Assembly: GCA_031279825.1 (NCBI GenBank)
Contig: JAITHT010000021.1
Coordinates: 1-38,294, forward strand
From: Desulfovibrio sp.
GTDB lineage: Bacteria; Desulfobacterota; Desulfovibrionia; Desulfovibrionales; Desulfovibrionaceae
DNA: 38,294 nucleotides
Reading direction: 5' to 3'
Shown piece after piece: positions 3,283 to 38,293 of the stretch; positions within the stretch are counted from its first letter, which is position 1, and every line of letters begins with the position of its first letter. A program made the translations under genes and the position numbers. The notes beneath the pieces were generated by a model that was not told the origin of the DNA, ran no database searches, and saw nothing but the letters and a program-made list of their open reading frames with translations.

Positions 3283-5340
3283 TCAGCGCTTCATCTGGAT
3301 GACCGTATCCAGCATGGTGTCCACGGTGGTGATGGATTTGGAGTTGGCCTGGAAGCCGCGCTGGGTGGTGATCATGTTCACGAATTCACGGGCCAGATCC
3401 GCGTTGCTCTGCTCCAGGGAGCGTCCCTGGGTGGTGCCGAAGACCCCGGTGCCCGCCGCGCCGGAACTGGGAATGCCGGATTCGCGGGTTTCGGTGAACA
3501 GGTTGCCGCCTTCGCGGCGCAGGTTCTGCTTGCTCGGGAACTCGTAGAGCGTGAGTTGGAAGAGTTGCAGGGTGACGCCGTTGGAGTAGGAGGCGGAGAG
3601 GATGCCCTCGGTGTTCACGTTCACGTAGCGCAAATCGCCGTAGGTGTAGCCGTCCTGCCGCTTGCCTGGGTGCTCGAAATAGGCCCCGTCCAGGCAGGTC
3701 ATGGCCGTGGGCAGCAGTTCGGACTTGCCGTCCAGGCCGAAGGTCCACTGCTTGTTGGCGGCGGGCACTATTACCGTTGTCGTGTTTGCCGTGGGTGCCG
3801 CGCCTTGAAGGATGGGAGTCCACGAGCCGTCGCCGTTATCCGTCCAATACGCGGGATCCAGCGAGCCTACCGGCGCGAGCCAGCTATCTGTAAGTCCTGA
3901 TGCCGCGTTGTAGGTCACGCCCGCCGGCGGATTGGCCGTATCCGGCTCCCACTGGGGGGTCGAGGGGCCGGTGTTTATCCAGTTGTCCCAGCCCGGTATG
4001 TTCACTGTCTGGGTGACCGTCGTCCGGATGTCCTGGGCCGTGCGCGTGGCCATGCTGGCCGCGCCGGGATGGCCGGTGGCGGGCATGCCGGCGGGAAAAC
4101 TCCATGTGTTGGTCTTGTTCCGCAGGCCGAAGTCGAGGGCGATGAGGCGGCCGCCGGCATACTGGTTGGGCTGGTCGTAGATGACGGGAGCGCCGGAGGC
4201 GGTGTTGTTGCCGTAACCGTAGGCCGCGGCCTGGCCGGGCGCGCCGGAGAAGTTGGGGGCGATAAGGGGGTAGCCGTTCTCATTGACGGGCGCGGAGACG
4301 AATTTGCTCAAATCGACGGACGGGGGAGTGGTGCCGGAATCCCAAAAGCCGCCCGCGTCCGGGACGAACAGGGACATGTCCTTCATCATGCCGGTGGAGT
4401 CGAAGGTAATGGTTCCGGCGCCCAAAAGACCCCGGAGATTCACGGGCACGTTGGGGGTTGTGGAGATGGCGTTGGGATCCAGGGTGCTGAAATCGCGCAG
4501 ATCGTCCTCCGGGTCCATGGTGATGATGTATTCCCAGTAACTCTCGTTGGGGGAGTTGTTGTCGACGACCTGGCCGCCCACCTCGTTCACCACCCGGTCG
4601 AAGTAGACCGTCAGCTTGTGGGAGCGGCCGCCCTCGTCGTACACCTCTATAGTGGTCTGGTAGGCGTAGGTGGCGTCGCCCAGGGGCTTGGTGGTGTCGG
4701 GATTGGTGGCGTCCCAGCGCTTGAGCAGGGAGAAGAAGGGGTCGTCCACGTTCACGCTCTTGTCCTGGGAGATGGCGTTGTCCATCTTGAGGTTGATGGG
4801 CAGGGTCAGGGAGGTGGTGTGGCGCGGCGGACAGGTGAAGGTGTCCAGCCGCACATCCGTGACCAGGCCCGTGCCCACGATGCCGCCGGTGTCCCGGTTG
4901 ATGAGGGCGGAGGAGGTGGAGTTCTGCATTTCCCTGTCTATTTTCCAGCCTTGCAGCACGTAGCCGTGCGGATCGACCAGAAAGCCGTCCGCGTCGAAGG
5001 TGAAGTTGCCGGCGCGGGTGTAGTACATGGTCTTGTTGGTCTTGGGCATGACGCCGAAGAAGCCGCTGCCGGCGATGGCGACGTCCGTGTCGCTGGTGGT
5101 GGTTTCCAGGCTGCCCTGGTCGAAGTCGTTCATGATGATGCCGATGGACGTGCCCCGGCCTACCTGGCCCATGCCCGAGGCCGTGCCCATGTACTGGTAT
5201 ACGAAATCCTGAAAGTCCATGCGCTGGGATTTAAAACCCACGGTGTTGACGTTGGAGATGTTGTTGCCGATGACGTTCATTTTCTCGCCGTGCGCGAGAA
5301 GGCCGGACACGCTGGTCCACATGCTTGCGGTAAGACTCAT
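3283..5340 (-). CDS. flgE: Flagellar hook protein FlgE
   Basis: FlgE polymerises into the curved hook joining the flagellar rod to the filament. The 685-residue product has the conserved N-terminal rod/hook segment (MSLTASMWTSVSGL, then IGNNISNVNTVGFKSQRMDF near residues 25-44) and the C-terminal helix (NADLAREFVNMITTQRGFQA) shared by FlgE, FlgF and FlgG, both of which build the coiled-coil core. The middle, roughly residues 120-600, is longer than in enteric FlgE (about 400 residues in total there) and forms the variable surface domains. AGGAGG stands 8 bases before the ATG. It is the last gene of fliK-flgD-flgE, 162 bases after flgD, with a hairpin just before its ribosome binding site and a terminator behind. 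Confidence 0.97.
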   Translation of the reverse strand: MSLTASMWTSVSGLLAHGEKMNVIGNNISNVNTVGFKSQRMDFQDFVYQYMGTASGMGQVGRGTSIGIIMNDFDQGSLETTTSDTDVAIAGSGFFGVMPKTNKTMYYTRAGNFTFDADGFLVDPHGYVLQGWKIDREMQNSTSSALINRDTGGIVGTGLVTDVRLDTFTCPPRHTTSLTLPINLKMDNAISQDKSVNVDDPFFSLLKRWDATNPDTTKPLGDATYAYQTTIEVYDEGGRSHKLTVYFDRVVNEVGGQVVDNNSPNESYWEYIITMDPEDDLRDFSTLDPNAISTTPNVPVNLRGLLGAGTITFDSTGMMKDMSLFVPDAGGFWDSGTTPPSVDLSKFVSAPVNENGYPLIAPNFSGAPGQAAAYGYGNNTASGAPVIYDQPNQYAGGRLIALDFGLRNKTNTWSFPAGMPATGHPGAASMATRTAQDIRTTVTQTVNIPGWDNWINTGPSTPQWEPDTANPPAGVTYNAASGLTDSWLAPVGSLDPAYWTDNGDGSWTPILQGAAPTANTTTVIVPAANKQWTFGLDGKSELLPTAMTCLDGAYFEHPGKRQDGYTYGDLRYVNVNTEGILSASYSNGVTLQLFQLTLYEFPSKQNLRREGGNLFTETRESGIPSSGAAGTGVFGTTQGRSLEQSNADLAREFVNMITTQRGFQANSKSITTVDTMLDTVIQMKR

Positions 5341-8061: not shown

Positions 8062-8191
8062 AAACATCACGTAAGGAGACGGCCGAAGAAAAAAGGGAGT
8101 GTACTCCGGCACGATTCTTACGTAGTATACGCCATGCAGGCAGGCGCCGCGCAAGGCTTTACCGCGCGTACGCCCTATTTTGGGAGGGAGT

Positions 8192-8214
8192 CCGGGGAAA
8201 ATCATTTCTCCCGG
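8192..8214 (+). repeat. CCGGGGAAAATCATTTCTCCCGG dyad-like motif upstream of rluA/coaE (first of two)
   Basis: An imperfect palindrome, GGGGAAAATCATTTCTCCC, lies in the 213-base gap between fliK and the pseudouridine synthase/CoaE gene. A near twin (GGGGGAAATCATTTCCCCC, perfect dyad) occurs at 11282-11300 upstream of the yedE-like gene. The shared core AAATCATTT suggests either a common repeat or an operator; the data do not decide. Confidence 0.4.
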
Positions 8215-8234
8215 CATTACGAAGGAAGGCGACG

Positions 8235-10355
8235 ATGGATCCAAATGCGGTAGCGAAACCCTTCAGGGCTTCGCGTCTCGCGCTTGGGAGGGGTCCCAAC
8301 CCCTCCCAAGCTTCCGCCCCGGAAAGAAACCCCGCCCTTCAGGGCGGGGTCGGGGCTATATCCGGCCTTGCGGCCGGGGTTTCAGACCACAAAGGAAGTT
8401 CTGATGACGGGAAGCCCCTGATCGCGCGCGGGGAGAGCGCGCCGGAGGAGATCCACGTTTTTTCGGCCGGCCGGGAGGACTCCGGTTCACGTCTGGACGC
8501 CTTTCTCGCCGGGCGCTTACGGGCGCGCGGCCTGTCGAGGGAGCGGATCAAGGACTGCATCCTTGCGGGCGGGGTCACGGTGGACGGCCTGCCGGAAACT
8601 TCTCCCAAGCGGCGGCTCGCCGCCGGCAGCGAGGTGCGGGCGGTCGCGCCGGCGATCCGCGCCGGTCCGACTCCGGAAGAGGGCGCTCTCGCCATTGTCT
8701 ACCGCGATGCGGAACTGGCCGTCATCAACAAGCCCGCCGGCATGGTGACGCATCCCGCGTCCGGTCTTGCGTCGGGCACCCTGGTCCACAGGCTTATGGC
8801 GCATTTTCCCGAACTTTCCGCCCAGGGGGGATTCCGTCCCGGTATCGTCCACCGCCTGGACAAGGATACGAGCGGCCTCATGCTGGCGGCCCTGACGGAA
8901 AGGAGCCGTCTGGCCCTTGCCGCCATGTTCGCCCGCCACGAGATCTATAAGGAATATCTGGCGCTGGTGCGCGGCGTTCCCGCCCGCGCGGGCGGCGTTA
9001 TCAATGCGCCCGTGGGCAGGCATCCCGCGCGCAGGACGAAAATGGCCGTGAGCGCGCGCGGCAGGGCGGCAAAAAGTTCCTGGCGCACGCTCTACGCAGA
9101 TCCGCGCGGGCGTTTCGCCCTGTTGGCGGTCCGTATCCATAGCGGGCGCACGCATCAGGTGCGCGTGCATATGCAGCATCTGGGGCATCCTTTGTGGGGA
9201 GATGCCCTGTACGGCGGCGGGGAAACTCTTTCGGATGCCCTTTTCGGCGGAAAATCCTCCCCGGCGGAAACGGCGTCGGACAGGGAGCCCGCGGGCGGCG
9301 CGCCGGCGCGCCAGATGCTGCACGCCTGGAAGCTCGGCTTTGTCCATCCTTTTCCCGGAGCGATCGCGGGAGCGGACGACGCGCCAGGAGAGCGGCCCGG
9401 CGCCTGCCGGGGGGACGCGGCAACCGTCCTCACCGGCGGGGCGGGGGACGAAACCCCGCTGTGCCGCGCCTTCCGGCGGCGCGCGCAAGAAGGATACCTG
9501 TTCTTCCGTTGTCCGCCGCCGGAGGATTTCGGCGCGGCCCTTCGTTTTTTGAGCCGGGAATGTCTGCGCGTGGCTGTTACCGGCCTGCCGGGCTGCGGCA
9601 AGTCGTCTTTGCTGGAAGCGTGGCGGCGCATGGGCGTGGCCGTTTTCAGCGCGGATGCCGAGGTGCGCAGACTGTACGAGCGCGGGGGCGACGGGCGGCG
9701 CTTGCTGCGCGCCTGGTTCGGAGATCGTTTCGTGCCCGGCCCGGACGATCCGGTGGACAAGGCGGCGCTCGGGCTTGCCATGCGGGACGATCCGGCCCTG
9801 CGCCGCGAGATAGAGGGGCTGATTCATCCTCTGGTGCGCCATGCGCTGAGGATGTTCTGGCGGGAACAGGACGCGCGCGGCGCGTCTCTGGCCGCGGCCG
9901 AGATTCCCCTGTATCTGGAGGCGGATTTCGCCGGGACGGCGCGTCGCCCCTTCTCGCCGTCAGGAGCGGGAGCGCGGGGCCGTTTTTCGGAGGAGGCTGT
10001 CCGGCGGGATACCCCCCCTGCCGTGCCCGATGCCGCGCACGTGCTGGTGGGGGTGTACTGCCCCGCCTCCGCGCGTTGGGAGCGGCTTGAGCGAAACAGG
10101 GGATGGAGCGGGGAGACGGCGGCCTGTATGGACGCCTGGCAATGGCCCGAGGAAAAAAAAATGGCCGCGTGCGATAGTATTGTCGATAACAGCGGCCCGG
10201 AGGGGGACATGCCGGGGCGGGCGGAGGAGGCGGCCGCCGCCCTGCTCGCTTTGCGGGCCGCACGCGAGGAAGGGCTGATGGCCCGTTTCGGGGAGTTGTG
10301 GGGCGCGGAGGGCGCGGCGGAACCGGCCGCCGAGGGGGCGACGCCGGACTTGTGA
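8235..10355 (+). CDS. RluA-family 23S rRNA pseudouridine synthase fused to dephospho-CoA kinase
   Basis: This is a 706-residue two-enzyme protein. Residues ~84-145 are an S4 RNA-binding domain (SGSRLDAFLAGRL). Residues ~160-380 are an RluA/RluD-type pseudouridine synthase with the catalytic motif HRLDKDTSG near 206. Residues ~445-640 match dephospho-CoA kinase, the last step of coenzyme A synthesis: P-loop GLPGCGKSS, SADAEV, HPLVRHAL, EIPLYLEADF and a late VDNSG. About 35 low-complexity residues interrupt the kinase after EADF, and an acidic Ala-rich tail follows. The ATG at 8235 has GAAGGAAGG 5 bases upstream, and the next ~57 codons are encoded by the dispersed repeat at 8239, read in frame, so the native N-terminus has been extended. 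The repeat's own ATG (8404) is out of frame. I read it as active on motif grounds. Confidence 0.85.
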   Translation: MDPNAVAKPFRASRLALGRGPNPSQASAPERNPALQGGVGAISGLAAGVSDHKGSSDDGKPLIARGESAPEEIHVFSAGREDSGSRLDAFLAGRLRARGLSRERIKDCILAGGVTVDGLPETSPKRRLAAGSEVRAVAPAIRAGPTPEEGALAIVYRDAELAVINKPAGMVTHPASGLASGTLVHRLMAHFPELSAQGGFRPGIVHRLDKDTSGLMLAALTERSRLALAAMFARHEIYKEYLALVRGVPARAGGVINAPVGRHPARRTKMAVSARGRAAKSSWRTLYADPRGRFALLAVRIHSGRTHQVRVHMQHLGHPLWGDALYGGGETLSDALFGGKSSPAETASDREPAGGAPARQMLHAWKLGFVHPFPGAIAGADDAPGERPGACRGDAATVLTGGAGDETPLCRAFRRRAQEGYLFFRCPPPEDFGAALRFLSRECLRVAVTGLPGCGKSSLLEAWRRMGVAVFSADAEVRRLYERGGDGRRLLRAWFGDRFVPGPDDPVDKAALGLAMRDDPALRREIEGLIHPLVRHALRMFWREQDARGASLAAAEIPLYLEADFAGTARRPFSPSGAGARGRFSEEAVRRDTPPAVPDAAHVLVGVYCPASARWERLERNRGWSGETAACMDAWQWPEEKKMAACDSIVDNSGPEGDMPGRAEEAAAALLALRAAREEGLMARFGELWGAEGAAEPAAEGATPDL
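8239..8407 (+). repeat. Dispersed 165-bp hairpin repeat, copy A (translated in frame)
   Basis: The unit starts ATCCAAATGCGGTAGCG and ends AAAGGAAGTTCTG before ATGA. It is 165 bp long up to the ATG, the same as copies B and D. Predicted hairpins in order are GAA(A/G)CCC-TTCA-GGGCTTC, GCTTGGGAGGGG/CCCCTCCCAAGC, ACCCCGCCC-TTCA-GGGCGGGGT, and CCGGCC-TTGC-GGCCGG, with GAAACCCC and GGGGTTTC able to close the last two. The second loop differs from the other copies while the stem stays paired. One frame is open through the unit and forms the N-terminus of the pseudouridine synthase/CoaE protein. Confidence 0.85.
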
Positions 10356-10411
10356 GATCGGAAAGATTCATGTATGCAGGGCACATCCGGATTGTCCTGA
10401 AAGGAGTCGTT

Positions 10412-11110
10412 ATGTCTATGCCATACATTTTTCGCGCCGGGAGCGCGGCGCGGCGTTTTACCGCTATCTTCGCCATCTGTCTGTTGTTGTTTTCTCTGGG
10501 CGCTTGCGGCGGCAGGGGCGGCCCGGCGGATCCGGCGGGCGGCGGTGAGCCGGGCAACCCCAATGACAGGAAACTTGCTTACGGTGTGACGGTTGCCGTG
10601 CCCGCCGACTGGTCGGTGGTTTCCAGCCTTTCCGCCGACGCGGCTCCCAAAGCGGCCCTTGACGCGCGCAGGCAAAAGGGAGAGCAGGTGCAACTGCTTG
10701 AAGCGAGCGGCGCCCCCGGCGCCAGGGGCTTACAGCCTTCCATCTCTCTTTTCCTTGTCAATCAGGCGGACGCCTTTATTCCCCGCAACTTCGCCGAAAA
10801 GCTGAATGAGGAGGAGTTCGCGGCCATGGCCCGGAAGATAGTGGAAAGGGAAAAGACCTTTGTCAAAAAAAATAAAAATCACAATACCCTGCTTGAGGTC
10901 CAGTTCACGCGTGACAGTATCGGCGGCAACCTTGCGCTGATGCAGCGCATGCTGGTGGTCGGGCCGGACGGAAAGCCCGTCCGTTTCCTGGGTTGGGACG
11001 TGTATCTGCAAAACGGCGCGGGTCTTACCGTCCGTTGCGCGTATGATCAGGAGTCCCCGGGCGTTGAAAGCGCGGTGACCAATATCGTCAAGTCGTTGCG
11101 CGTGCGCTAG
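10412..11110 (+). CDS. Putative lipoprotein (unknown function)
   Basis: The 232-residue product starts at ATG 10412, 5 bases after AAAGGAG; an upstream in-frame ATG at 10370 lacks such a site. Residues 1-31 form a signal peptide (AIFAICLLLFSLGAC) with lipobox SLGAC. A Gly/Pro linker follows, then a compact domain beginning YGVTVAVPADWSVV and ending NIVKSLRVR. The opening VxxPxDW and closing xIxxSL pattern resembles small exported proteins of the DcrB/PsbP-like fold, but I could not confirm this. No enzyme motif is seen. It lies 56 bases after the CoaE fusion and could share its transcript. Confidence 0.8.
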   Translation: MSMPYIFRAGSAARRFTAIFAICLLLFSLGACGGRGGPADPAGGGEPGNPNDRKLAYGVTVAVPADWSVVSSLSADAAPKAALDARRQKGEQVQLLEASGAPGARGLQPSISLFLVNQADAFIPRNFAEKLNEEEFAAMARKIVEREKTFVKKNKNHNTLLEVQFTRDSIGGNLALMQRMLVVGPDGKPVRFLGWDVYLQNGAGLTVRCAYDQESPGVESAVTNIVKSLRVR

Positions 11111-11371
11111 TGTCCTGAGTCATAAATTCGCATTACAAATCAGGACAGCAGCCGCCGGGCCGTATTGCCCGGCGCGCCGCCGCAGGCGGCGAGCGCTAAC
11201 GTTAATCTGCTGCCGTGTGACGGTTACGCGTACCCCTCCGGCGGCCGGGGACGGAAGCCCTTGATGGGGGGCCGGCCGATTGGGGGAAATCATTTCCCCC
11301 GGCCCTCCAAATACATTTGTAGATACCTTTTACCCGGCATGAAGGTCTCAGACCGCATAAGGAGTCGGCGG
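11111..11371 (+). other. Gap with stacked inverted repeats upstream of the yedE-like gene
   Basis: TGTCCTGA (11111-11118) and TCAGGACA (11140-11147) form an inverted repeat around an AT-rich core. A GC-rich block at 11154-11194 (GCCGGGC...GGCGCGCCGCCGCAGGCGGCG) has a relative at 31283-31323 inside another inverted-repeat element. The perfect dyad GGGGGAAATCATTTCCCCC is at 11282-11300, and AAGGAG before the yedE ATG is at about 11359. The frame of yedE is open upstream but has no initiation signal there. The first part may be a small mobile-repeat relic. Confidence 0.5.
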
Positions 11372-12460
11372 ATGCAACACAGACGTTTTACCGGAACTTT
11401 CGGCATTGCGGCAAGCGGCGCGCTCATGGCCGCTCTTGCCGTCGGGTTGCAGCATCTCGGCAATCCGGCCAATATGGGATTGTGCGTCGCCTGTTTTGAG
11501 CGGGATATCGCCGGCGCCCTCGGTTTGCACAGAACGGAAATCGTGCAGTACCTGCGCCCGGAGATACCGGCGCTGTTATTGGGGTCTTTTATCGCGTCCC
11601 TGAGTTTCGGCGAATTCAAACCCAGAGCGGGCTCATCTCCTCTGACGCGTTTTATTCTGGGTATGTGCGCCATGATCGGAGCTTTGGTCTTTCTCGGCTG
11701 TCCATGGCGCGCCCTGCTCCGGCTCGCGGGCGGAGATCTGAACGCCGTTACCGGCCTTGCGGGGCTCGTCACCGGCATAGGCGTGGGAACGCTCTTCTTT
11801 CGGAAGGGCTATTCGCTGGGCAGAAATACTCCCCAACGCGCGGGCGCCGGACTTGTTATGCCCGTGCTGATGCTGGGGACGCTCGCGCTTCTGCTTATTT
11901 TTCCACAAATAGCCGGCGAAGGCAAAAGCGGCGTTCTTTTTTATTCCGTGAAAGGTCCGGGCTCAATGCACGCGCCGCTGCTCTATTCCCTCGGCGGAGG
12001 GCTGGCCGTCGGCTTTCTCGCCCAACGCAGCCGGTTCTGCACCATGGGCGCATTCCGCGATTTGCTCATGTTCCGCCACGCGCACCTGCTGATCGGCGTG
12101 GCGAGCTTTGTGGCGGCGGCCTTCGCTCTCAACCTCATGCTCGGAAAAGTCAATGTCGGCTTTGCGGGGCAACCCGTGGCCCATTCCGCCCACCTCTGGA
12201 ATTTTCTCGGCATGATGACCGCCGGATGGGCGTTCGCTCTGGCCGGGGGATGCCCCGGACGGCAGATTTTCATGGCCGGCGAAGGCGATGCGGACGCCGG
12301 TCTGTTTATGATCGGCATGATTGTCGCCGCCGCTTTTGCCCACAACTTCGGCCTGGCAAGTTCCCCGGCGGGTATCGGAGCGTATGGCGACGCGGCCGTG
12401 TACGTCTGTCTGATCGTTCTTCTGGGGCTGTCTCTGGCTCACGTTCGCAAAGCATCGTAA
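11372..12460 (+). CDS. yedE: YedE/YeeE-family transporter, selenium-metabolism type
   Basis: This polytopic inner-membrane protein has 362 residues and about ten hydrophobic segments. YeeE/YedE proteins move sulfur or selenium compounds: TsuA carries thiosulfate, and the selenium-linked branch is a putative selenium importer. Cysteines sit in the family pattern: GLCVACFERD near residue 38, LGCPWR near 108, SRFCTMGAFRD near 222 and GGCPGRQIF near 300. The start is ATG 11372 with AAGGAG about 7 bases upstream. TusA-like, DUF3343 and kinase genes follow at once, the arrangement known for selenium metabolism genes in anaerobes, which favours selenium over thiosulfate. Copy B of the dispersed repeat has landed 10 bases after its stop. 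Confidence 0.8.
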   Translation: MQHRRFTGTFGIAASGALMAALAVGLQHLGNPANMGLCVACFERDIAGALGLHRTEIVQYLRPEIPALLLGSFIASLSFGEFKPRAGSSPLTRFILGMCAMIGALVFLGCPWRALLRLAGGDLNAVTGLAGLVTGIGVGTLFFRKGYSLGRNTPQRAGAGLVMPVLMLGTLALLLIFPQIAGEGKSGVLFYSVKGPGSMHAPLLYSLGGGLAVGFLAQRSRFCTMGAFRDLLMFRHAHLLIGVASFVAAAFALNLMLGKVNVGFAGQPVAHSAHLWNFLGMMTAGWAFALAGGCPGRQIFMAGEGDADAGLFMIGMIVAAAFAHNFGLASSPAGIGAYGDAAVYVCLIVLLGLSLAHVRKAS

Positions 12461-12470
12461 GGAGAGCGCC

Positions 12471-12638
12471 ATCCAAATGAGGTAGCGAAGCCCTTCAGGG
12501 CTTCACGTCTCGCGCTTGGGAGGGGTTTGGCCCCCTCCCAAGCTTCTGCCCCGGAAAGAAACCCCGCCCTTCATGGCGGGGTCGGGGCTATATCCGGCCT
12601 GAAGGCCGGGGTTTCAGACCACAAAGGAAGTTCTGATG
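12471..12638 (+). repeat. Dispersed hairpin repeat, copy B (supplies RBS and ATG to the tusA-like gene)
   Basis: It is 165 bp from ATCCAAATGAGG to TTCTG, then ATG. All four hairpins are preserved: the second has the loop TTTGG instead of the copy A loop, and the fourth has CCGGCC-TGAA-GGCCGG, so loops vary while stems hold. It lies between TAAGGAGAGCGCC, which looks like the original ribosome binding site, and the tusA-like ATG. The AAAGGAAG at its end is now 5 bases before that ATG. Confidence 0.85.
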
Positions 12639-12860
12639 AGCAAAAAAATCATCGACGTTTGCGGACTTGCCTGCCCGGAACCGCTTATAGCCTTTACAAA
12701 GGCGGCGAAAACGGCGGATGTCACTGAAATGGAAATCAGTTTTGACTGCGCTGCCGCCAAAGACTCTATCACCCGTTCGGCGGCCCCCATGGGATGGAAA
12801 ATCGCTTCGATTGTTGAGGAACATAATCAAACGGTCATGAACCTGGTAAAGGTTCCGTGA
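12636..12860 (+). CDS. TusA/YedF-family sulfur or selenium carrier protein
   Basis: The 74-residue product (MSKKIIDVCGLACPEPL...) has the TusA fold pattern with the CPxP motif at residues 13-16; Cys13 is the persulfide/selenide-carrying residue. In TusA this cysteine passes sulfur for tRNA thiolation. The stand-alone relatives beside YedE and DUF3343, often called YedF, are linked to selenium use. The ATG is the one at the end of repeat copy B, with AAAGGAAG 5 bases before it, so initiation now depends on repeat sequence. Its TGA overlaps the GTG of the DUF3343 gene. It lacks the C-terminal DsrE-like domain found in longer YedF proteins. Confidence 0.85.
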   Translation: MSKKIIDVCGLACPEPLIAFTKAAKTADVTEMEISFDCAAAKDSITRSAAPMGWKIASIVEEHNQTVMNLVKVP

Positions 12861-13447
12861 GTGTATTGTCACGCCTGCGTTCCGCCTTTTTCCGGCTGCG
12901 GCGCGGAAAGGCGGAAGCCCCGCGCGTTCCCGACGGCGAAGTCTTTCTCGTCTTCGCCGATACGGGTGAAGTTATCCGGGCGGAACGCATTCTCAAGGCC
13001 GGAGGAATGGACGTCAAAGTCATGGCCCCGCCGCCGGCTTTGCGCACGGGCTGCGATATGGTGCTCGTTATTTCTCTCGTACATGCCTTGAGGGCTGTCG
13101 CCACGCTGGAGGAGCGCCAGCTCGCTCCCTTGCGGACGGCGCAGGCGAAAGACGCGCTTCTTGAACCGGTTTCCCTGTTCCAGACAAAGGATTACGGAGA
13201 ATGGCTCATGGTCAGGGCGGCGAATATGAAGCTCACGGTGGAAAAGTCGTCCGGGCGCATCGTCAATGTTTCGGGAGGCGGTTGCCCTGACGTGCCTTAT
13301 CTGGCCGCCGAACTGGTGGGGAAAAGCATTCTGGAGGCTGACCCGGCCAGGGAAGGCGGTCAAACCTTGTGCGGTTACGCGCTTTTTTTGGCCGCGCGGG
13401 AACTGCGGAAACTGCATGCGTCGGCAAAGAGCGGGGCAGATGCGTAA
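12857..13447 (+). CDS. DUF3343 (putative Se/S carrier-like) protein
   Basis: The 196-residue product starts at GTG 12857, overlapping the previous stop. Residues ~27-90 (GEVFLVFADTGEVIRAERIL, then DVKVMAPPPALRTGCDMVL) match the DUF3343 family, annotated as Se/S carrier-like, with the family cysteine in RTGCDM. Residues 110-190 form a second part (DYGEWLMVRAANMK, GGGCPDVPYLAAELVG) with another conserved-looking cysteine. Known biology goes little beyond co-occurrence with YedE and TusA-like proteins. Its last codons overlap the start of the kinase gene by 8 bases, so the three small genes look translationally linked. Confidence 0.75.
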   Translation: MSVLSRLRSAFFRLRRGKAEAPRVPDGEVFLVFADTGEVIRAERILKAGGMDVKVMAPPPALRTGCDMVLVISLVHALRAVATLEERQLAPLRTAQAKDALLEPVSLFQTKDYGEWLMVRAANMKLTVEKSSGRIVNVSGGGCPDVPYLAAELVGKSILEADPAREGGQTLCGYALFLAARELRKLHASAKSGADA

Positions 13448-14330
13448 AGAGACCGCGTCTTCCTCGCGTCCCTGGCTTTTTGTGGGGACAATTCCTGATG
13501 AGGACTTTCCTCTGGTGTTGTCGCGGTTCACGGCAAGCGGGAGAGATCTTTTTCTTGGTTCCCGTCTTTGCCCCGTGAACCGCGGGACTCCGGCCATGTT
13601 GGCGGCCGCCTCCATTGCCCATGCCCACGCATATCCGGAATCGCGCAAAGCGCCTCTGCACGTGCTGGCGGCCGGAGACGTCGGCGGAGGCCGGGGGTCT
13701 CGGGAGGTATACCGGAGACTGGTCGCACTTTTGCCGTCACTGCGCCCTCGGGGCATCACCTTCCATTATCTGTTGCCTGATGTCGATTGGCACAACCGAA
13801 TCCTGATAGCGATTGAGGAACTGCCTGAAAAGCCGGTGCTGATAGCGGACGCGGGATACATGTATGCGGCCAAAATGAGCGGCTATGCGGAGAGTTACGA
13901 TCTTTTCACCCCGGACATCGGCGAACTGGCCTTTCTGGCGGACGAGTCGGCCCCGCACCCGTTCTACACGCGCAATTTTTTGCTCGCGGACGAGGAACAG
14001 GCGGAGGAGCTTATTATCAGGGCCTACGCGGGCAACAATGCCGCACGGCATATGTTGGTGAAAGGCAGAGTTGACCGCTACACGCATAACGGCGCGATAT
14101 CGGAAAAAGTGGACGCTCCGGACGTGCCCATGCTGGAGCCGGTCGGCGGGACGGGCGACACGCTGACCGGCATCGTCAGCGCCCTGGCGGCATCAGGCCT
14201 TGCGTTGCGCGCCGCCTGCACGGCGGCGTTTATGATAAACCGGCGCATGGGATTTTTGGCGCGGCCGACCCCTGCGTCGTCCATTGCGGATATACTGACC
14301 TTCCTGCCGTCCGCATGCCGCTCCGCATAG
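13440..14330 (+). CDS. Ribokinase-fold kinase related to NAD(P)H-hydrate dehydratase (YjeF C-terminal type)
   Basis: This 296-residue product carries the family ATP-site motif GGTGDTLTGIVSALAASG near residues 235-252, where the Asp is the catalytic base, and VLIADAGYMYAAKM near 130. The overall plan fits the ADP/ATP-dependent NAD(P)H-hydrate dehydratase/sugar-kinase fold. It lacks the N-terminal epimerase domain of full YjeF. Its place at the end of yedE-tusA-DUF3343, overlapping the last by 8 bases, suggests a job in that pathway rather than general metabolite repair, but the substrate is unknown. The start is ATG 13440. Repeat copy C begins 13 bases after the stop. Confidence 0.75.
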   Translation: MRKETASSSRPWLFVGTIPDEDFPLVLSRFTASGRDLFLGSRLCPVNRGTPAMLAAASIAHAHAYPESRKAPLHVLAAGDVGGGRGSREVYRRLVALLPSLRPRGITFHYLLPDVDWHNRILIAIEELPEKPVLIADAGYMYAAKMSGYAESYDLFTPDIGELAFLADESAPHPFYTRNFLLADEEQAEELIIRAYAGNNAARHMLVKGRVDRYTHNGAISEKVDAPDVPMLEPVGGTGDTLTGIVSALAASGLALRAACTAAFMINRRMGFLARPTPASSIADILTFLPSACRSA

Positions 14331-14342
14331 AGCGGTTTCACA

Positions 14343-14433
14343 ATCCCAATGCGGTAGCGAAGCCCTTCATGGCGGTGTCGGGGCTATATGGCCTTGCGGC
14401 CGGGGTTTCAGAGCACAAAGGAAGTTCTGATGA
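14343..14433 (+). repeat. Dispersed hairpin repeat, copy C (internally deleted)
   Basis: It begins ATCCCAATGCGGTAGCGAAGCCCTT and ends CACAAAGGAAGTTCTGATGA like the others but is about 78 bases shorter. The junction lies at the short direct repeat CCCTTCA present in hairpins 1 and 3, so slippage or recombination there would explain the loss. The terminal ATG opens only MKNVL before a stop. It sits between the convergent kinase and dnaB genes, 9 bases from the dnaB stop. Confidence 0.8.
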
Positions 14434-14441
14434 AAAACGTT

Positions 14442-15914
14442 CTATAATTCCGAAGGGGCGCGGGCGGATTCCGGATTTTCAAAGGCGGTATAAGCGGGCG
14501 CGTACATGAGCTCAAAGGAGCCGACGGGGCCGTTGCGCTGTTTGCCGATGCTGATTTCAGCCTTGTCCACGGGCGGGCGTTCAGCCACCTTCATGTAGGC
14601 GGCTTCGCGGTAAATGAACATGATGACGTCCGCGTCCTGCTCAATGGCGCCGGACTCGCGCAGGTCTGAGAGCATGGGCCGCTTGTCGGAGCGTTCTTCC
14701 ACCTTGCGGTTGAGCTGCGACAGGGCCAGAACGGGCACGTTGAGTTCCTTGGCCATGGCCTTGAGGTTGCGGGAGATGTCGGATATTTCCAACTCGCGTG
14801 AATCGGTGCGCCTGTTGGAACGCATAAGCTGCAGATAATCAATGATCACCAGCCCTATGTTTTTTTCCAGCCGCAGCCGCCGGGTGCGGGCGCGCAGTTC
14901 CAGGGGGGAAAGAGAGGGCGTGTCGTCGATATAGATGGGGGCTTTGCTGAAGGCCTCGCCGGCGTCGTGCAGACCCTGCCAGTCGTCATCGGTGAGATAG
15001 CCCTGGCGCAGGTGGGACAGATTGACCTTGCCCCAAGCGCAGAGCATGCGCATGATGAGCTGTTGCATGGACATTTCCAGCGAATACACGGCCACGCCCA
15101 CTTCGGCGCGGATGGCGGCGCGCATGGCGATATTCAGGGCAAAGGCCGTTTTTCCCATGGAAGGGCGGGCGGCCAGAATAATCAGATCCGACGGCTGGAA
15201 CCCGGAGGTCATGTGATCCAGCCTGCCGTATCCGGTGGGCACGCCGGTAACCAGATCGTGCCGGGCGGCCCGGGATGTCAGGTCGTCGAACACCTGCCGG
15301 GTAAGTTCGGCGGCGTCCTTGTAAGAACGGCCCGTATTACGCTGGGAGACGGAGAGAACGGCCTGCTCCGCGTCGTTGAGCAGGGCGCGCACGTCTTGGC
15401 CCGGTTCAAAGCTGTTGGCGATGATGTCGGTACATGAGGTAATGAGATGGCGGGCCAGAGCCTTGTCGCGCACGAGTTCGGCGTAGTATTCGGCGTTGGC
15501 GGCGCTGGCGATGCTCCTTGCCAGTTCGGCAAGATATACGGCTCCGCCGACTTCTTCAAGCCGGGCGCCGCTTTTGAGCTGTTCGGCCACGGAGATGAGA
15601 TCGATGGGAAGACCGCGCTGGAAAAGATCCCGGTAGGCCGAGAAAATCAGGCGATGGGCGGGAAGATAGAAGTCATCCTCATGCAGGATGTCTATCATGA
15701 GGTACAGCGATTCCGGCTTTAAAAAGACCCCGCCGAGTACGGCCTGCTCGGCCTCGAGACTGTGGGGGGGAACATTGCGCAACAGATCGGCCGTCGCGCT
15801 GTCCGGTCCCGGGGAGGGGCGGTGTCCGACATCCCTTGTGTTGCAAGAGATGCCGGACGCGCCGGAATTATTCCCCGCCGGGTTCTTCCGCCGGGGAGGG
15901 TTGATTGCTGGCAT
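14442..15914 (-). CDS. dnaB: Replicative DNA helicase DnaB
   Basis: DnaB is the hexameric helicase that opens the replication fork and contacts primase. The N-terminal domain starts near residue 52 (VPPHSLEAEQAVLGGVFL). The RecA-like motor has Walker A ARPSMGKTAF near residue 240, Walker B IGLVIIDYLQLM near 345, LSQLNRKVEER, and the end motif SIGKQRNGPVGSFEL. Length from ATG 15914 is 490, near the usual 450-480. This start overlaps rplI by 47 bases and has AGGAAG 16 bases upstream. A closer ATG inside the gap (15823) is in another frame, so either the overlap is real or a small frameshift sits near a C-rich run around 15800-15815. Last gene of rpsF-rpsR-rplI-dnaB. Confidence 0.93.
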   Translation of the reverse strand: MPAINPPRRKNPAGNNSGASGISCNTRDVGHRPSPGPDSATADLLRNVPPHSLEAEQAVLGGVFLKPESLYLMIDILHEDDFYLPAHRLIFSAYRDLFQRGLPIDLISVAEQLKSGARLEEVGGAVYLAELARSIASAANAEYYAELVRDKALARHLITSCTDIIANSFEPGQDVRALLNDAEQAVLSVSQRNTGRSYKDAAELTRQVFDDLTSRAARHDLVTGVPTGYGRLDHMTSGFQPSDLIILAARPSMGKTAFALNIAMRAAIRAEVGVAVYSLEMSMQQLIMRMLCAWGKVNLSHLRQGYLTDDDWQGLHDAGEAFSKAPIYIDDTPSLSPLELRARTRRLRLEKNIGLVIIDYLQLMRSNRRTDSRELEISDISRNLKAMAKELNVPVLALSQLNRKVEERSDKRPMLSDLRESGAIEQDADVIMFIYREAAYMKVAERPPVDKAEISIGKQRNGPVGSFELMYAPAYTAFENPESARAPSEL

Positions 15915-16386
15915 CGGCGGCAGGCTCTTCTTCCTGATGTATTTTTTCCGCCACAACGGTGAGGGCAAGCTCCGCCAGAACATCGGCATGCAGACGCACG
16001 CGGACGGTATACTCGCCAAGGGCCCGAATGGGGGAATCAAGCAGAATGCGGCGGCGATCCACCTCAACGCCCCTGGCGGCAAGGGCTTCGGCAATAAGCG
16101 CCGAGGTCACGGAGCCGTAAAGTTTGTCATTGTCGCCCACGCGCATGGCGATGGTGACGGGCGTTGCCGCAACTCTGGCGGCCAAGGATGACGCCGTGTT
16201 GCGCAGAGCCTCGGTTTTTATCTGGAGTTTTTTGCGCTCAAGCTCAAAAACTTTTATATTCGCCGGGGTCGCCCGCATGGCATAGCCTTGGGGCAACAGG
16301 AAGTTGCGCCCGTAGCCGGGCTTTACCTCCACCATGTCCCCCAGTTTGCCGAGGTTTTCCACGTCTGTTCGTAAAATCACTTTCAT
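15868..16386 (-). CDS. rplI: 50S ribosomal protein L9
   Basis: L9 is an elongated two-domain protein that binds 23S rRNA near the L1 stalk. The 172-residue product starts MKVILRTDVENLGKLGDMVEVKPGYGRNFLLPQG, the L9 signature region, has the long connecting helix (FELERKKLQIKTEAL), then the C-terminal domain (YGSVTSALIAEAL, then LGEYTVRVRLHADV). The last 20 residues are an acidic tail (EEEPAADAS...EEPGGE) beyond the normal 150. It starts 11 bases after rpsR with GGAGG upstream and overlaps dnaB. Confidence 0.97.
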   Translation of the reverse strand: MKVILRTDVENLGKLGDMVEVKPGYGRNFLLPQGYAMRATPANIKVFELERKKLQIKTEALRNTASSLAARVAATPVTIAMRVGDNDKLYGSVTSALIAEALAARGVEVDRRRILLDSPIRALGEYTVRVRLHADVLAELALTVVAEKIHQEEEPAADASNQPSPAEEPGGE

Positions 16387-16397
16387 GGCAGGCCCTC

Positions 16398-16661
16398 CTA
16401 CAGCACGCTCTTTTTCTTGACGTCGCAGGCGTGCGTCGCGGTGTAAATCATAAGGGCCATCTGGCGGGAACGTTTGATTTCCACAGTCAGTTTGCGCTGG
16501 TGATGCGCGCAGGTGCCGGTGATGCGGCGGGCGATGATTTTTCCCCGTTCGTTAACGAAATCCCGCAGGATATCCGCTCGTTTGTAATCAAGGGGAAGAG
16601 CCTTGTCGGCGCAGAAGCGGCAGAATTTTTTTCGGGGAGTGAATTTTTTCTTGAAAGCCAT
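16398..16661 (-). CDS. rpsR: 30S ribosomal protein S18
   Basis: S18 sits on the platform of the small subunit in contact with S6. The 87-residue product has the standard core [27 protein letters not shown] followed by [21 protein letters not shown]. An N-terminal CRFC pair is kept, as in the zinc-binding (C+) form of S18 with two further Cys (GTC, HACD). Its ATG overlaps the rpsF TGA (TGATG), so it is coupled to rpsF. The next gene is rplI. Confidence 0.97.
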
Positions 16662-16966
16662 CAGGCGACCTCCTCAACGGCGTCAGCCAGCTTTACGGTC
16701 ACGAATTTGAATACGCCCTCGGCGATGCGGATATTGCGCTCCAGTTCGGCAATAAGAGCGCCGGGGCCCGTATACTCAAGACGAACGTAAAAACCGCGCA
16801 TTTGCTTTTTGACAGGATAGGCAAGATCGCGTATGCCCCATGCGTCTTCCACTATTACCTTACCCCCTTCGCGCTCAACGACTCCCTTTAATCCCGCCAG
16901 CAGGGAGGCGCGCGTTTCGGACGAAAGTTCGGGGGAAAGGAGCAGCAGGGTTTCGAATTTTCTCAT
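16661..16966 (-). CDS. rpsF: 30S ribosomal protein S6
   Basis: The 101-residue product starts at ATG 16966 ([15 protein letters not shown]), 6 bases after AAGGAGA. A longer frame upstream crosses the promoter and was rejected. The fold pattern YETLLLL...V..GGKV...[25 protein letters not shown]...[17 protein letters not shown] is that of S6, which pairs with S18 on the small-subunit platform. It heads the rpsF-rpsR-rplI-dnaB operon. Confidence 0.97.
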
Positions 16967-17027
16967 GCTTTTCTCCTTGTGGACAAAATGGCCCGCCCGG
17001 TACTCGCGGACGAGCAAGGAATCTATA

Positions 17028-17056
17028 AGATTAGACAATCGGGCGGGTTTTGTCAA
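17028..17056 (-). promoter_or_regulatory. Sigma-70 promoter of the rpsF operon
   Basis: Minus-strand TTGACA (17056-17051), a 17-base spacer and TAATCT (17033-17028) are a near-consensus housekeeping promoter 62 bases upstream of the rpsF ATG. A very AT-rich stretch lies further upstream at 17110-17170, possibly an UP-type element. Confidence 0.75.
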
Positions 17057-17195
17057 GGTAATTTTCGGAAGCAGGGGCGCCCGTGCCGGCTTTCCCATTC
17101 TAAAGACCATTGCAGGTTATTTTTTATAATATATTGATATTATTGTTAAATTACGATATATTGTCTTATCGGAACCTGATGAGGTGCTTTGGGTA

Positions 17196-17364
17196 ATCCA
17201 AATGAGGTAGCGAAGCCCTTCAGGGCTTCGCGTCTCGCGCTTGGGAGGGGTTTGGCCCCCTCCCAAGCTTCCGCCCCGGAAAGAAACCCCGCCCTTCATG
17301 TCGGAGTCGGGGCTATATCCGGCCTTGCGGCCGGGGTTTCAGACCACAAAGAAAGTTCTGATGA
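17196..17364 (+). repeat. Dispersed hairpin repeat, copy D
   Basis: It is again 165 bp from ATCCAAATGAGG to TTCTG, then ATG. Hairpin 3 is damaged here (TTCATGTCGGAGT), and the end reads AAAGAAAG instead of AAAGGAAG, so this copy looks older or less constrained. Its ATG opens only MRF. It lies between the AT-rich upstream region of the rpsF promoter and the end of the kinase gene, marking the edge of the AT-richer island. Confidence 0.85.
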
Positions 17365-17387
17365 GATTTTGAACTCCATTTTGGATA

Positions 17388-18353
17388 TCAGCCGAATATT
17401 CGGTGGAAAAAAAACCTATCATCAAAAAAGGAACAAAAATCTTGCGATGCAGGGCGCGTCTTAGGATCCATTGATAGCCCGCGCCTCAAAAGGCGTTGCA
17501 ATTTTTTAGGCAAATATTTTAAATCAATACCCACCGCCCCATTTTTTTTTGCCTCAAGGGAACTTTTCTTGTTGAATGGATGCCACCCTTCAGCGAGTTC
17601 AACCAAAGTACAGCATGCGGAAAATATGTCATCTGCTGTAGAAGGCATCGCCCCTTCAATTCGATCTGGTGATGCGTAAAGAGGACTATACGATGGAATG
17701 CATAGTTCCGCGCAGATACTTCTGGTAACAGCCGATGAGGGCACCCCCATAGAGGCTTCAGCGTCTGCTGTATTAAAATCAAACAACACTAAACGCGAAT
17801 TTCGTTCCAGCATTAAATTCCCTGGCTTTATGTCGCCATGGGCAATGCGGTGAGTATGCATGAAATGCAAGGTGTTAAAAAGAGATTGAGCAATCGGCAA
17901 GACGTTATCCTTTAAGCCAAGCCGCAGAGAGGATAAAAGCTCTCCTTCTAACAATTCCATGCTGATAACGGGGCCATAACTGGTATCATGCAAATCGTAA
18001 CATCTAATAATTCCTTCATGATTCAGCATTCGTGTCACTATAAACTCTCGCACTAGAAGCTGTTGCGCCTTACAATCTTTTGCATATTGAAACAGAAGTC
18101 TTTTTATTGCCACCTGGGGGAATTTGTCCCCGCAAGCAACCCGAAAAAGGTCCGTAGCCATAAATACTTCACAGAGTCCGCCAATACCTAAGACTTTATC
18201 GAGAATAAATCGATCTTTGCTTTTCCTTTCAGCTACACATCTCGAATCATCAAAAACATCATATGCATTCACCAATGGACGACTTGTGATAGCCTTTTGG
18301 GTAGAGATGCGACTCGTAAGCTTCTTGTATTTCTTTTCTTTTTTTCTTCCCAT
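17388..18353 (-). CDS. Serine/threonine protein kinase
   Basis: The 321-residue Hanks-type kinase has glycine loop LGIGGLCEVF (residues 55-64), VAIK lysine 84, catalytic HGDIKPGN (172-179, HGD instead of HRD), magnesium-binding DFN (192-194, DFG to DFN) and ASPD in place of APE near 228. A basic N-terminus of about 45 residues precedes it, and there is no membrane segment, so it is cytosolic. The start lies only 2 bases after the PP2C stop. Kinase/PP2C pairs of this build (PpkA/PppA) control type VI secretion posttranslationally, but no secretion gene is left in the window. The DNA is clearly AT-richer than its neighbours, suggesting transfer. Confidence 0.88.
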   Translation of the reverse strand: MGRKKEKKYKKLTSRISTQKAITSRPLVNAYDVFDDSRCVAERKSKDRFILDKVLGIGGLCEVFMATDLFRVACGDKFPQVAIKRLLFQYAKDCKAQQLLVREFIVTRMLNHEGIIRCYDLHDTSYGPVISMELLEGELLSSLRLGLKDNVLPIAQSLFNTLHFMHTHRIAHGDIKPGNLMLERNSRLVLFDFNTADAEASMGVPSSAVTRSICAELCIPSYSPLYASPDRIEGAMPSTADDIFSACCTLVELAEGWHPFNKKSSLEAKKNGAVGIDLKYLPKKLQRLLRRGLSMDPKTRPASQDFCSFFDDRFFFHRIFG

Positions 18354-36186: not shown

Positions 36187-37653
36187 ATGGCGGCGGCTAT
36201 GCGTTTTTATCTCGCCACCCTCGGCTGCAAGGTCAATCAATACGAGTCCCAGGCCCTGCGGGAGGCATGGCTGGCGCAGGATTGGCAGGAAGCCCGCACC
36301 CCGGAACAGGCTGACCTGATAGTGCTGAATTCATGCGCCGTGACGGCCGGCGCCATCGCCGATTTGCGCAATCGTGCGCGCCGGCTGCACCGGGCCGCGC
36401 CGGAGGGCGCCGTGATCATTACCGGCTGTGCGGCGGAAATTTCGGCCGAGGAATTGGCGAATCTGCCGGGTGTATCCGCGGTGATAGGACAAAGCCGCAA
36501 GACGGAATTGCTGCAAGTGGGGTGGGAAAGGCGGATTCTATCTCCGGCGGATTCTCCCGCGCGGGAGCCTGGGGGCGTTCGCGGCGTTTCGGAGTGGGAG
36601 GATACTGCCGGCCCCTTTCCCGATTTCGCCGTTTCCGGCTCGGAGCGTTCGCGGGCGCTGCTCAAGATTCAGGACGGCTGCTCGCATCACTGCACCTACT
36701 GCGTTGTCCCCCTGACGCGGGGCAATGCGCGCTCGCGAAATTTCGCGGAGGCTTTGAGCGAGGCAAAGAGGCTGCTGGCCTCGGGATTTCGGGAGATTGT
36801 GCTCAGCGGAGTGAATTTGCGTCAATACGGGGAAGATCTGACCGAACAGGCATGCCGAAAGCCCGCGGCGTCATCCGGCTGTGACTTTTGGGATTTGCTG
36901 TACCGGCTTGATCGTGAACTGCGTCCCGCATGGGCGGGACGGGCGCGTTTGCGCGTCAGTTCCCTCGATCCGGGCCAACTCGGCCAAAAAGCCATGGACG
37001 TGCTCGGTTCGAGCCGAATGGTCGCCCCTCACCTGCATCTTTCTCTGCAAAGCGGCAGTTCTTCCGTGCTTGGCCGTATGGGGCGCGGGCATTACAGGCC
37101 GGAAAAGATTCCTGAGTTTTTTGCCGGTCTGCGCTCATGCTGGCCGACATTCGGTTTGGGCGCGGATATTTTGACGGGTTTTCCCGGTGAAAGCGAGGCG
37201 GAATTTCAGGAAAGTCTCTCTCTGTGCCGGGCCTTGCCGTTGACTTACGGTCACGTATTTCCGTATTCCCGGCGGCCGGGCACGCTTGCGGCGGCTATGG
37301 GCGGGCAGTTGTCCGAGGCGGTGAAAAAAGAGCGGTCGGCCGCGCTGCGCTCCCTGATCCGGGAAAAAAAACGGGATTTTTTACGGATGCTCCTGGATAT
37401 TCCTTTGATGCGGGTGGTGTTTGAAGACAGAAGCGAGCGGAGCGGCGGGGAAGGCTTTGCCGAAAAGCCGCGCGCTCTTTTTTTTCACGGCTTGAATGAA
37501 TTCTATGCTGACTGCCGCCTGGAAACGACATCCGCCGGACAGGTCGTGCCGAAGTTTCGTGTCTTAAGTCGTGCGCGTCCTTTGCGTGTGGAGGATGACG
37601 CGCTGCTGGTCGCTTTGGCGGAAAATGCCGATACCGGGCAAGGATCCAAATGA
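36187..37653 (+). CDS. mtaB: tRNA methylthiotransferase MtaB-like (radical SAM)
   Basis: MtaB adds a methylthio group to t6A37 in tRNA. The 488-residue product has the UPF0004 domain with its three cluster cysteines (GCKVNQYES near 14, NSCAVT near 50, GCAAE near 80), the radical SAM CSHHCTYC near 165, QSGSSSVLGRMGRGHY near 284, DILTGFPGE near 328 and a short TRAM-like C-terminus. GCKVNQYE favours MtaB over MiaB or RimO. The start is ATG 36187; a second ATG 12 bases on is possible, and no strong RBS decides. A ~25-residue insert near 120-145 is unusual. The stop codon lies in the 50-bp palindrome. Confidence 0.88.
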   Translation: MAAAMRFYLATLGCKVNQYESQALREAWLAQDWQEARTPEQADLIVLNSCAVTAGAIADLRNRARRLHRAAPEGAVIITGCAAEISAEELANLPGVSAVIGQSRKTELLQVGWERRILSPADSPAREPGGVRGVSEWEDTAGPFPDFAVSGSERSRALLKIQDGCSHHCTYCVVPLTRGNARSRNFAEALSEAKRLLASGFREIVLSGVNLRQYGEDLTEQACRKPAASSGCDFWDLLYRLDRELRPAWAGRARLRVSSLDPGQLGQKAMDVLGSSRMVAPHLHLSLQSGSSSVLGRMGRGHYRPEKIPEFFAGLRSCWPTFGLGADILTGFPGESEAEFQESLSLCRALPLTYGHVFPYSRRPGTLAAAMGGQLSEAVKKERSAALRSLIREKKRDFLRMLLDIPLMRVVFEDRSERSGGEGFAEKPRALFFHGLNEFYADCRLETTSAGQVVPKFRVLSRARPLRVEDDALLVALAENADTGQGSK

Positions 37654-37693
37654 GGTAGCGAAGCCCTTCAGGGCTTCGCTACCTCATTTGGAT
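37644..37693 (+). repeat. Perfect 50-bp palindrome made from the start of the dispersed repeat
   Basis: ATCCAAATGAGGTAGCG plus AAGCCC (37644-37666) pairs without mismatch with 37671-37693 across TTCA. Its first 35 bases equal the beginning of the 165-bp repeat (copies B and D); then instead of continuing it mirrors itself. The TGA of mtaB is bases 37651-37653. A stem of 23 bp would be a strong RNA hairpin at the mtaB end but lacks a following T-run. Confidence 0.85.
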
Positions 37694-37980: not shown

Positions 37981-38293
37981 TAGGGAACCGCTGAACAATT
38001 GTCCGGTGGCGGGGCGGCTTTGTTTCAGGCAGTAAAATTTCCGAAAAAAGGGGAAAAATCCGGTAAAAATTGCCTCATTTTACTCTCGTTTTGTACCTTT
38101 TCCCTGAAAAAAGGCGCAATTATGCCTTAGCAGGCCACTGCCGGCATGAGGATACGTGCGCCTTTTTTTGGAAAAGGGGCACAAAATGAAGAAAATAGAA
38201 GGAATTTCAGCTCAAATGCAGCAACTTTGACGGTTTTTTGCTGCCCCGCTGAATAATAAAGCCTGCTTGACTTCATTATTCAGCGTTTCCTTA
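37981..38293 (+). repeat. 313-bp inverted-repeat element without a transposase gene
   Basis: The left end TAGGGAACCGCTGAACAATT and the right end (reverse strand CTAAGGAAACGCTGAATAAT) match at most positions of about 20. It holds no open frame of use, has a hairpin TTGCTGCCCCGCTGAATAAT...ATTATTCAGC at the right, and a pair AAAAAAGGGGAAAA / TTTTCCCTGAAAAAA-like repeats inside. The last 103 bases equal 525-626. It could be a MITE or the deletion product of a larger IS; the right TA lies at the window edge. Confidence 0.6.

Follow-up and report, generated by a model that had tools for sequence, protein, structure and literature searches.

How does one sequence, predicted to form four hairpins and closing with a ribosome-binding site (RBS), come to stand directly before an ATG at several places in a genome? 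The question is raised by the window, the whole 38,294-nucleotide stretch analysed here (positions 1 to 38,294 of contig JAITHT010000021.1, assembly GCA_031279825.1, Desulfovibrio sp.), in which a model reading the letters without database searches (the original prediction) had pointed out three copies of a 165-bp repeat. We conclude that the repeat probably represents a small, non-autonomous element family resembling miniature inverted-repeat transposable elements (MITEs), which inserts directly before ATGA and carries a portable RBS at its 3' end, and our data suggest that many genes have retained this end as their translation start. As far as our searches show, the family is new, while the broad kind to which it belongs is already known. 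An insertion onto a start codon would be tolerated since the element brings its own RBS, and this RBS could then be held by selection while the remainder decays. More tentatively, movement may proceed by a single-strand (HUH-type) mechanism that recognizes the hairpins, with a transposase acting in trans.

Insertion sites and the ATGA target

The following features of the window belong to the element or to its best-resolved insertion site, upstream of a tusA-family gene; copies A, B and C are delimited by sequence.

8239..8403, forward strand: copy A, 165 bp
12471..12635, forward strand: copy B, 165 bp, upstream of the tusA-family gene
17196..17360, forward strand: copy C, 165 bp, between two minus-strand genes
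14343..14429, forward strand: copy D, 87-bp short form, intergenic, beside dnaB
37644..37693, no strand assigned: 50-bp inverted repeat of the element 5' end, with 23-bp arms and a 4-nt TTCA loop
12459..12464, forward strand: native RBS of tusA (AAGGAG), stranded 5' of copy B
12623..12629, forward strand: predicted RBS carried by the element (AAAGGAA), 6 nt ahead of the ATG
12636..12639, forward strand: target ATGA, the tusA start codon

Comparison with related genomes revealed precise empty sites. At tusA, the uninterrupted sequence reads TAAGGAGAAAAGC-ATGAGC in G002 (L105) and TAAGGAGAGCGCTT-ATGAGC in G009 (L103), and the window reads TAAGGAGAGCGCC-[165 bp]-ATGAGC, so that the element lies between the native RBS and the start codon, with no target duplication. 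Copy B now provides the nearest predicted RBS to the tusA-family gene. Empty sites at an ACT-domain gene (in G009) and at a class I/II aminotransferase gene resembling hisC (in G014) agree with tusA, the copy of the window's genome being truncated at the latter. Together with a genomic total of 67-70 copies, these sites bear out the earlier suggestion of a mobile unit.

Using a search motif that excludes the target, we found that the 3' junction in the window's genome is ATGA at 58 of 70 ends, ATGC at 5 and other letters at 7. The remaining flank showed no strong preference among the 49 copies with both flanks. ATGA is therefore the apparent target of the element, and we infer that the preference reflects transposition itself, with insertions within genes having been purged. 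As regards the features of DDE-type MITEs, type I, the form present in the window, has no duplicated target at tusA and, by eye, lacks terminal inverted repeats; in type II, 35 of 48 copies have an ATG at the 5' side that could be a duplication.

Copy number, length and distribution

The window's own genome (G000) is a 94-contig assembly that is 83% complete. Searches of it gave 67 matches to the 3' motif and 70 to the 5' motif, and a reversed control gave 0. The original prediction had regarded few copies elsewhere in the genome as a sign against its proposal, and this count points the other way. Many contigs end within a copy, so the true copy number is uncertain. Five of the 70 matches to the 5' motif fall in three inverted-repeat forms, in which the 5' end is joined to its mirror: one in the window, a 50-bp form in L112 (2454-2503) and a partial form in L042 (~161-200) that is fused to the end of a copy. 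The window had been described as holding three copies; these are real, but copy D and the inverted repeat at 37644-37693 had been missed. Likewise, the plus-strand orientation holds within the window but not across the genome, where copies lie on both contig strands (30 forward, 37 reverse).

Among 70 distinct 3' ends in G000, 49 belong to measurable copies, of which 36 are 162-166 bp long, 11 are 85-89 bp, one is 151 bp and one 59 bp; for the remaining 21, no length could be taken owing to contig ends, truncation, divergence or longer variants. The three large window copies are each 165 bp up to the base before the ATG, as originally described, but we rejected the notion of 165 bp as a constant, selected length. 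A longer form with additional sequence occurs in L020, L034, L040, L046 and L060. No open reading frame (ORF) was seen in the repeat.

In the bacterial family as a whole, matches to the 3' motif with no more than 2 mismatches were obtained in 28 of 247 genomes, spread over 9 of 44 genera, the reversed pattern giving 0. Counts are highest in G100 (102), G006 (93), G000 (70) and G010 (67). Named bearers among the matches listed are Desulfovibrio metagenome-assembled genomes (MAGs), Candidatus Mailhella excrementigallinarum, D. piger, with isolate PG-251-APC-1 among its records, and a goat-rumen MAG; judging by sample codes, several of the Desulfovibrio MAGs probably come from termite guts. Two bodies share one 3' end, namely type I, to which the window copies belong, and type II (TTTCAATCCAC..., ~168-187 bp), and the bodies differ between bearers while the 3' end stays conserved. 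No match to the element was found in IMG/VR, a phage set or a plasmid set, and looking among the listed loci for close relatives of G000 yielded none above 80% identity over at least 250 nt. Incomplete MAGs limit all statements of absence made here.

The 3' end as a proposed portable translation start

The element ends in AAAGGAA plus 6 nt ahead of the target ATG. Judged from these letters, the end is a plausible RBS for that ATG and may act as a portable translation start. Our counts support the view that it serves a gene only where the ATGA happens to be a start codon. In G000, ORF calls place the start of an ORF with at least 90 codons at 15 of 70 copies, and counting any such ATG ORF gives 17 of 70, leaving 53-55 copies that start none; the rule misses shorter genes such as tusA (74 codons), and with a threshold of at least 70 codons the number is 21 of 70, tusA included. 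The built-in initiation signal first proposed for the repeat is thus supported where ATGA is a start codon, but it does not describe most copies.

By chance, 21.3% of ATGA sites in the G000 stretches examined would lie at starts of at least 90 codons (80 of 375 sites outside ORFs or at ORF starts). The observed share shows no excess over this value (P = 0.54 for 15 of 70, P = 0.32 for 17 of 70), with the caveat that ORF rules differed slightly between the null and the observed count and that the ORF caller was purpose-made. As the share is no more than chance, starts do not appear to be targeted, and start codons as a preferred target are unsupported both in G000 and in G006 (see below), where shares are near chance.

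Across the family, however, 41 of the 93 loci lie at gene starts vs 24.8% expected (P = 4e-5, among the matches listed). We read this enrichment as retention and, in part, ascertainment, because these loci were found with a motif that contains ATGA. The same figure also speaks for a quite different explanation, in which the repeat is a cis-acting leader RNA (riboswitch-like or an attenuator) that spread by duplication, folds 5' of the RBS and controls translation. A possible short upstream frame in type II (ATG TTT CAA TCC) would also suit a leader. Nevertheless, the many G000 copies that start no ORF of at least 90 codons and the many kinds of downstream genes speak against it, and we consider a leader RNA improbable.

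Hairpins and stem conservation

Four hairpins, as originally described, are predicted for copy B, with z-scores of -5.8 as RNA (12471-12660) and -6.2 as the opposite DNA strand; none of 200 shuffles was as stable on either strand. The loops vary between copies while the stems stay intact, in line with the first description. For type I, we compared 31 sequences, of which 18 came from the 38 of G000 and 13 from 23 others; in these, 95.9% of stem cells pair. Cells changed on both sides numbered 71, whereas shuffles gave 29.8 +/- 3.8 and slid structures no more than 6, so the stem-preserving changes whose absence would have counted against the proposal are present. Most of this covariation is one between-species split, in which four of five neighbouring hairpin 1 pairs are swapped, and the foot of hairpin 1 (mostly GTAG and CGTC) is largely kept across it. 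In type II, 35 cells changed on both sides vs 19.9 +/- 4.3 in shuffles (32 of 36 sequences), a weak signal. All stem counts are rough, with hand-drawn structures and related sequences.

The strong predicted fold and the stems kept across species would both be expected of a leader RNA. However, G-T mismatches are not favoured over A-C mismatches on the sense strand (15 vs 18 in type I, 57 vs 108 in type II), and there is no sign that sense RNA is what is conserved; in addition, no relevant Rfam match was obtained. The earlier idea of a structured RNA is therefore upheld for the stems, with their compensatory changes between species, but not for the wobble pairs that would mark a sense-strand RNA.

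Truncated copies and proposed domestication

If the element is mobile DNA whose RBS becomes useful at some sites, its 3' end might outlast the rest there. Among the matches listed, an ORF begins at 37 of 40 copies whose 5' end cannot be recognised, compared with 28 of 47 full copies (P = 3e-4); excluded from this count were four copies close to the edge of a locus and two whose ORF was cut. A copy of ~270 nt (L214) that had been cut off earlier prompted a recount with a 300-nt window, which gave 36 of 38 vs 27 of 46 (P = 1e-4), with seven and two copies excluded. Many of the 40 copies without a 5' end retain 3' hairpins; 19 also lack the last hairpin, and 17 of these 19 still stand at starts, which further argues against a leader RNA.

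The ilvC gene (KARI domain) illustrates the series. A full type II element precedes it in G013, a partial one in G010 and a 3' unit of ~23 nt only in G007 and G008, and in G048, of a different genus, the element is truncated; 24 of 30 ilvC orthologues have no element and one was unreadable. These results show preferential survival of the 3' end where ATGA is a start codon and suggest its domestication as an RBS.

Truncations in G000, tallied by eye after setting aside contig ends, inverted repeats and two divergent short relics, comprise 5 copies without the 5' part and 1 without the 3' part; at L061 only the last few bases are missing. We rejected a retro-type bias towards 5' truncation, as retention of the RBS end explains this tally more simply. 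Type II loci also contain remnants consisting of the 5' part only.

At L036 (~4171-4200), an old relic of the 3' unit (TTTTCAGACAATAAAGGAAATGTTGATGA) is separated by 6 nt from a newer full copy downstream of it, before a gene that we take to be HU-like, and a similar gene in G014 (L221) begins at a truncated element. Type II insertion, for example at L160, L171 and L175, leaves the native RBS and an ATG ahead of a short frame (MFQST...), a possible upstream ORF.

Search for a mobilising enzyme

G000 encodes one intact Y1 protein of 216 aa (L084, C53:14192-17515), whose gene is flanked, by eye, by inverted repeats resembling GGGGACATAATACT. The start of this repeat matches 7 of the 8 letters of GGGGWSAS, given in PMC3733652 as the motif of tyrosine transposases flanked by terminal inverted repeats. 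A second Y1 gene (L090, C80:38531-41725) is broken and has an upstream region similar to that of L084. The 7-kb locus around the intact gene (C53:12500-19500) contains no copy of the repeat. Across the bearers, Y1_Tnp matches were obtained in 16 of 28 genomes, many of them incomplete, with fragments and broken genes counted. At the Y1 loci L078-L101, the element 3' end was missing at up to 8 mismatches, save for one 7-mismatch match in L101, and two IS200-type families of G237 have ends that differ from those of the element (14 of 20 stretches compared).

A search for an autonomous parent of type I compared the lists of 5' and 3' motifs by eye. For type II, 16 unpaired 5' ends (L118-L263) were available, and none of the three intervals inspected for ORFs held an enzyme-bearing parent: L178 has no ORF of 80 codons, none was recognised in L193, and the interval in L236 takes in a separate gene that lies past a copy with an altered 3' end. 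Since the enzyme searches were without result, the mechanism of movement is read from the anatomy of the element only.

This anatomy, with hairpins near both ends, a one-sided tetranucleotide target and no duplication, would suit a MITE of an IS200/IS605 (Y1) element with TCAT on the opposite strand as its target, and PMC6006769 describes the guide and target logic of such elements. The original prediction had named a non-autonomous derivative of this group; the anatomy remains compatible with it, but the Y1 loci examined yielded no parent with the same ends, the G237 families end differently, and Y1 goes unmatched in many bearers (counted below). We hold this origin, which is compatible in mechanism with the element family proposed here, to be a serious but minority possibility.

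A composite REP/BIME-type repeat moved by a RAYT, also compatible in mechanism, seems unlikely to us. In its favour, the species-swapped stem of hairpin 1 is immediately bordered by GTAG on the 5' side and CGTC on the 3' side in most type I copies, and G000 has both an intact and a broken Y1 gene. The definition of a GTAG-class REP in PMC6006769 (GTAG 0-2 nt 5' of a 7-20 bp stem with a loop of 2-5 nt) agrees with hairpin 1 of most type I copies and not with type II, at whose hairpins no GTAG was seen by eye. Moreover, the element has four hairpins in ~165 bp, far from the 20-40 bp of a REP, and the intact Y1 gene has other inverted repeats at its flanks and no copy nearby.

IscB loci carry an RBS-like 3' end beside an ATG, and HEARO elements reportedly insert at ATGA/GTGA, a finding ascribed to Weinberg in 2009. 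The repeat could accordingly be an orphaned HEARO/omega-RNA left over from an IscB or IsrB transposon, with ATGA/NTGA at its 3' side, and the ATGA junction does fit the NTGA motif of DtIsrB given in PMC9581776. However, RF02033 was unmatched up to E 10 in positions 8100-17500 of the window and up to E 5 in 12 other loci, and the RRXRR domain was found in 0 of 15 genomes of the genus, in a search without a positive control. We regard this origin as very improbable. Membership of the element in IS200/IS605, REP/RAYT or HEARO/IscB is not shown.

Evidence against the proposed element family and its implications

Several observations weigh against a domesticated, single-strand-type element. In G006, 6 of 14 copies start ORFs vs 37% expected (P = 0.42). 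Native Shine-Dalgarno sequences stranded upstream are found at 13 of 26 start sites vs 5 of 22 non-start sites in type II, a weak difference (P = 0.049), and at 3 of 12 start sites vs 7 of 43 others in G000 (P = 0.38). The test of truncated copies uses copies found by their 3' end, ATGA included. The type II covariation score (0.099) is no higher than that of the slid control (0.103). An ATG stands ahead of the 5' end in 35 of 48 type II copies (19 of 26 at start sites, 16 of 22 at non-start sites) and could be a 3-bp duplication, which would point away from a single-strand mechanism. Finally, no transposase for the element was found in the searches made: Y1_Tnp is unmatched in 12 of the 28 bearing genomes, among them G006 with its 93 copies, and the search for IS91-type Y2, which covered 28 bearers and 5 non-bearers, gave a match in 1 of these 33 genomes; its sensitivity rests on that single match, 0 of 14 control genomes having matched.

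A bolder version of the proposal, which we consider doubtful, treats the repeat as a mobile hairpin-DNA element of a new class, moved by a trans-acting enzyme that is neither a Y1 nor a Y2 transposase. Its ~24-nt end would be a portable translation start, harmless on ATGA starts and then domesticated, which would have rewired initiation across the family. Mobile elements bring promoters to genes. A repeat that brings an RBS, is placed on a host start codon and is then pared down would, if true, be a clear case of mobile DNA supplying or replacing translation signals. Its recurrence in 9 of 44 genera provides natural sets of empty, full and truncated sites, for example at ilvC and tusA, in which RBS turnover can be studied.

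Gene context of the window copies

Over 170 nt, copies A and C are 92% and 95% identical to copy B. The 3' terminus of all three reads AAAG(G/A)AAGTTCTG, followed by ATGA, which agrees with the shared ending first reported. Copy D lacks hairpin 2 and parts of hairpins 1 and 3, apparently through a deletion between two CCCTTCA loops, as judged by eye. The element ATG opens 74 codons, a gene, at copy B only, and 5, 3 and 5 codons at copies A, C and D, respectively.

Copy A begins one base past codon 1 of an ORF (8235-10355) that fuses an RluD-type pseudouridine synthase domain with dephospho-CoA kinase (CoaE). It is open in that frame and reads as a 55-codon in-frame insertion, its own ATG (8404) being out of frame; the RBS-like AAGGAAGG upstream suggests that the native start is at 8235. 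Copy C adjoins a minus-strand gene, presumably rpsF-like, and a minus-strand protein-kinase gene. A MiaB-like radical-SAM gene that ends at 37653 takes its stop codon (AAATGA) from the inverted repeat at 37644-37693.

Near the two ends of the window, at 525-627 and 38191-38293, lie two 103-bp stretches that are 98% alike and contain GCTGAATAA...TTATTCAGC. They look like another small repeat family, and a similar stretch also lies 3' of an element in L022.

Comparison with known systems

The original prediction knew of no described family with these properties, and none turned up in Rfam or in the literature searched, most subscription journals being outside its scope. Rickettsia palindromic elements (RPE) are noted for in-frame insertion in genes. 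Copy A resembles them as an in-frame insertion in a protein gene, but it is the sole such case among those examined. RPE are mentioned in PMC3733652, in whose main text 'Desulf' occurs 0 times. The GTAG/CGTC-tagged REPs and REPtrons treated in that paper are likewise dispersed palindromic repeats, and type I hairpin 1 shares their GTAG/CGTC. In contrast to REPs of 20-40 bp, the element spans ~165-180 bp, has a conserved end outside the hairpins and an ATGA 3' junction, and does not flank the RAYT-like gene. With HEARO and IscB-IsrB systems it has in common a structured body with a 3' ATGA, but it gave no RF02033 match. From IS200/IS605 ends and their MITEs it differs in carrying an RBS and four hairpins and in that no parent sharing its ends was found in the loci compared, whereas it resembles them in its end hairpins, its short one-sided target and the absence of duplication (type I, tusA).

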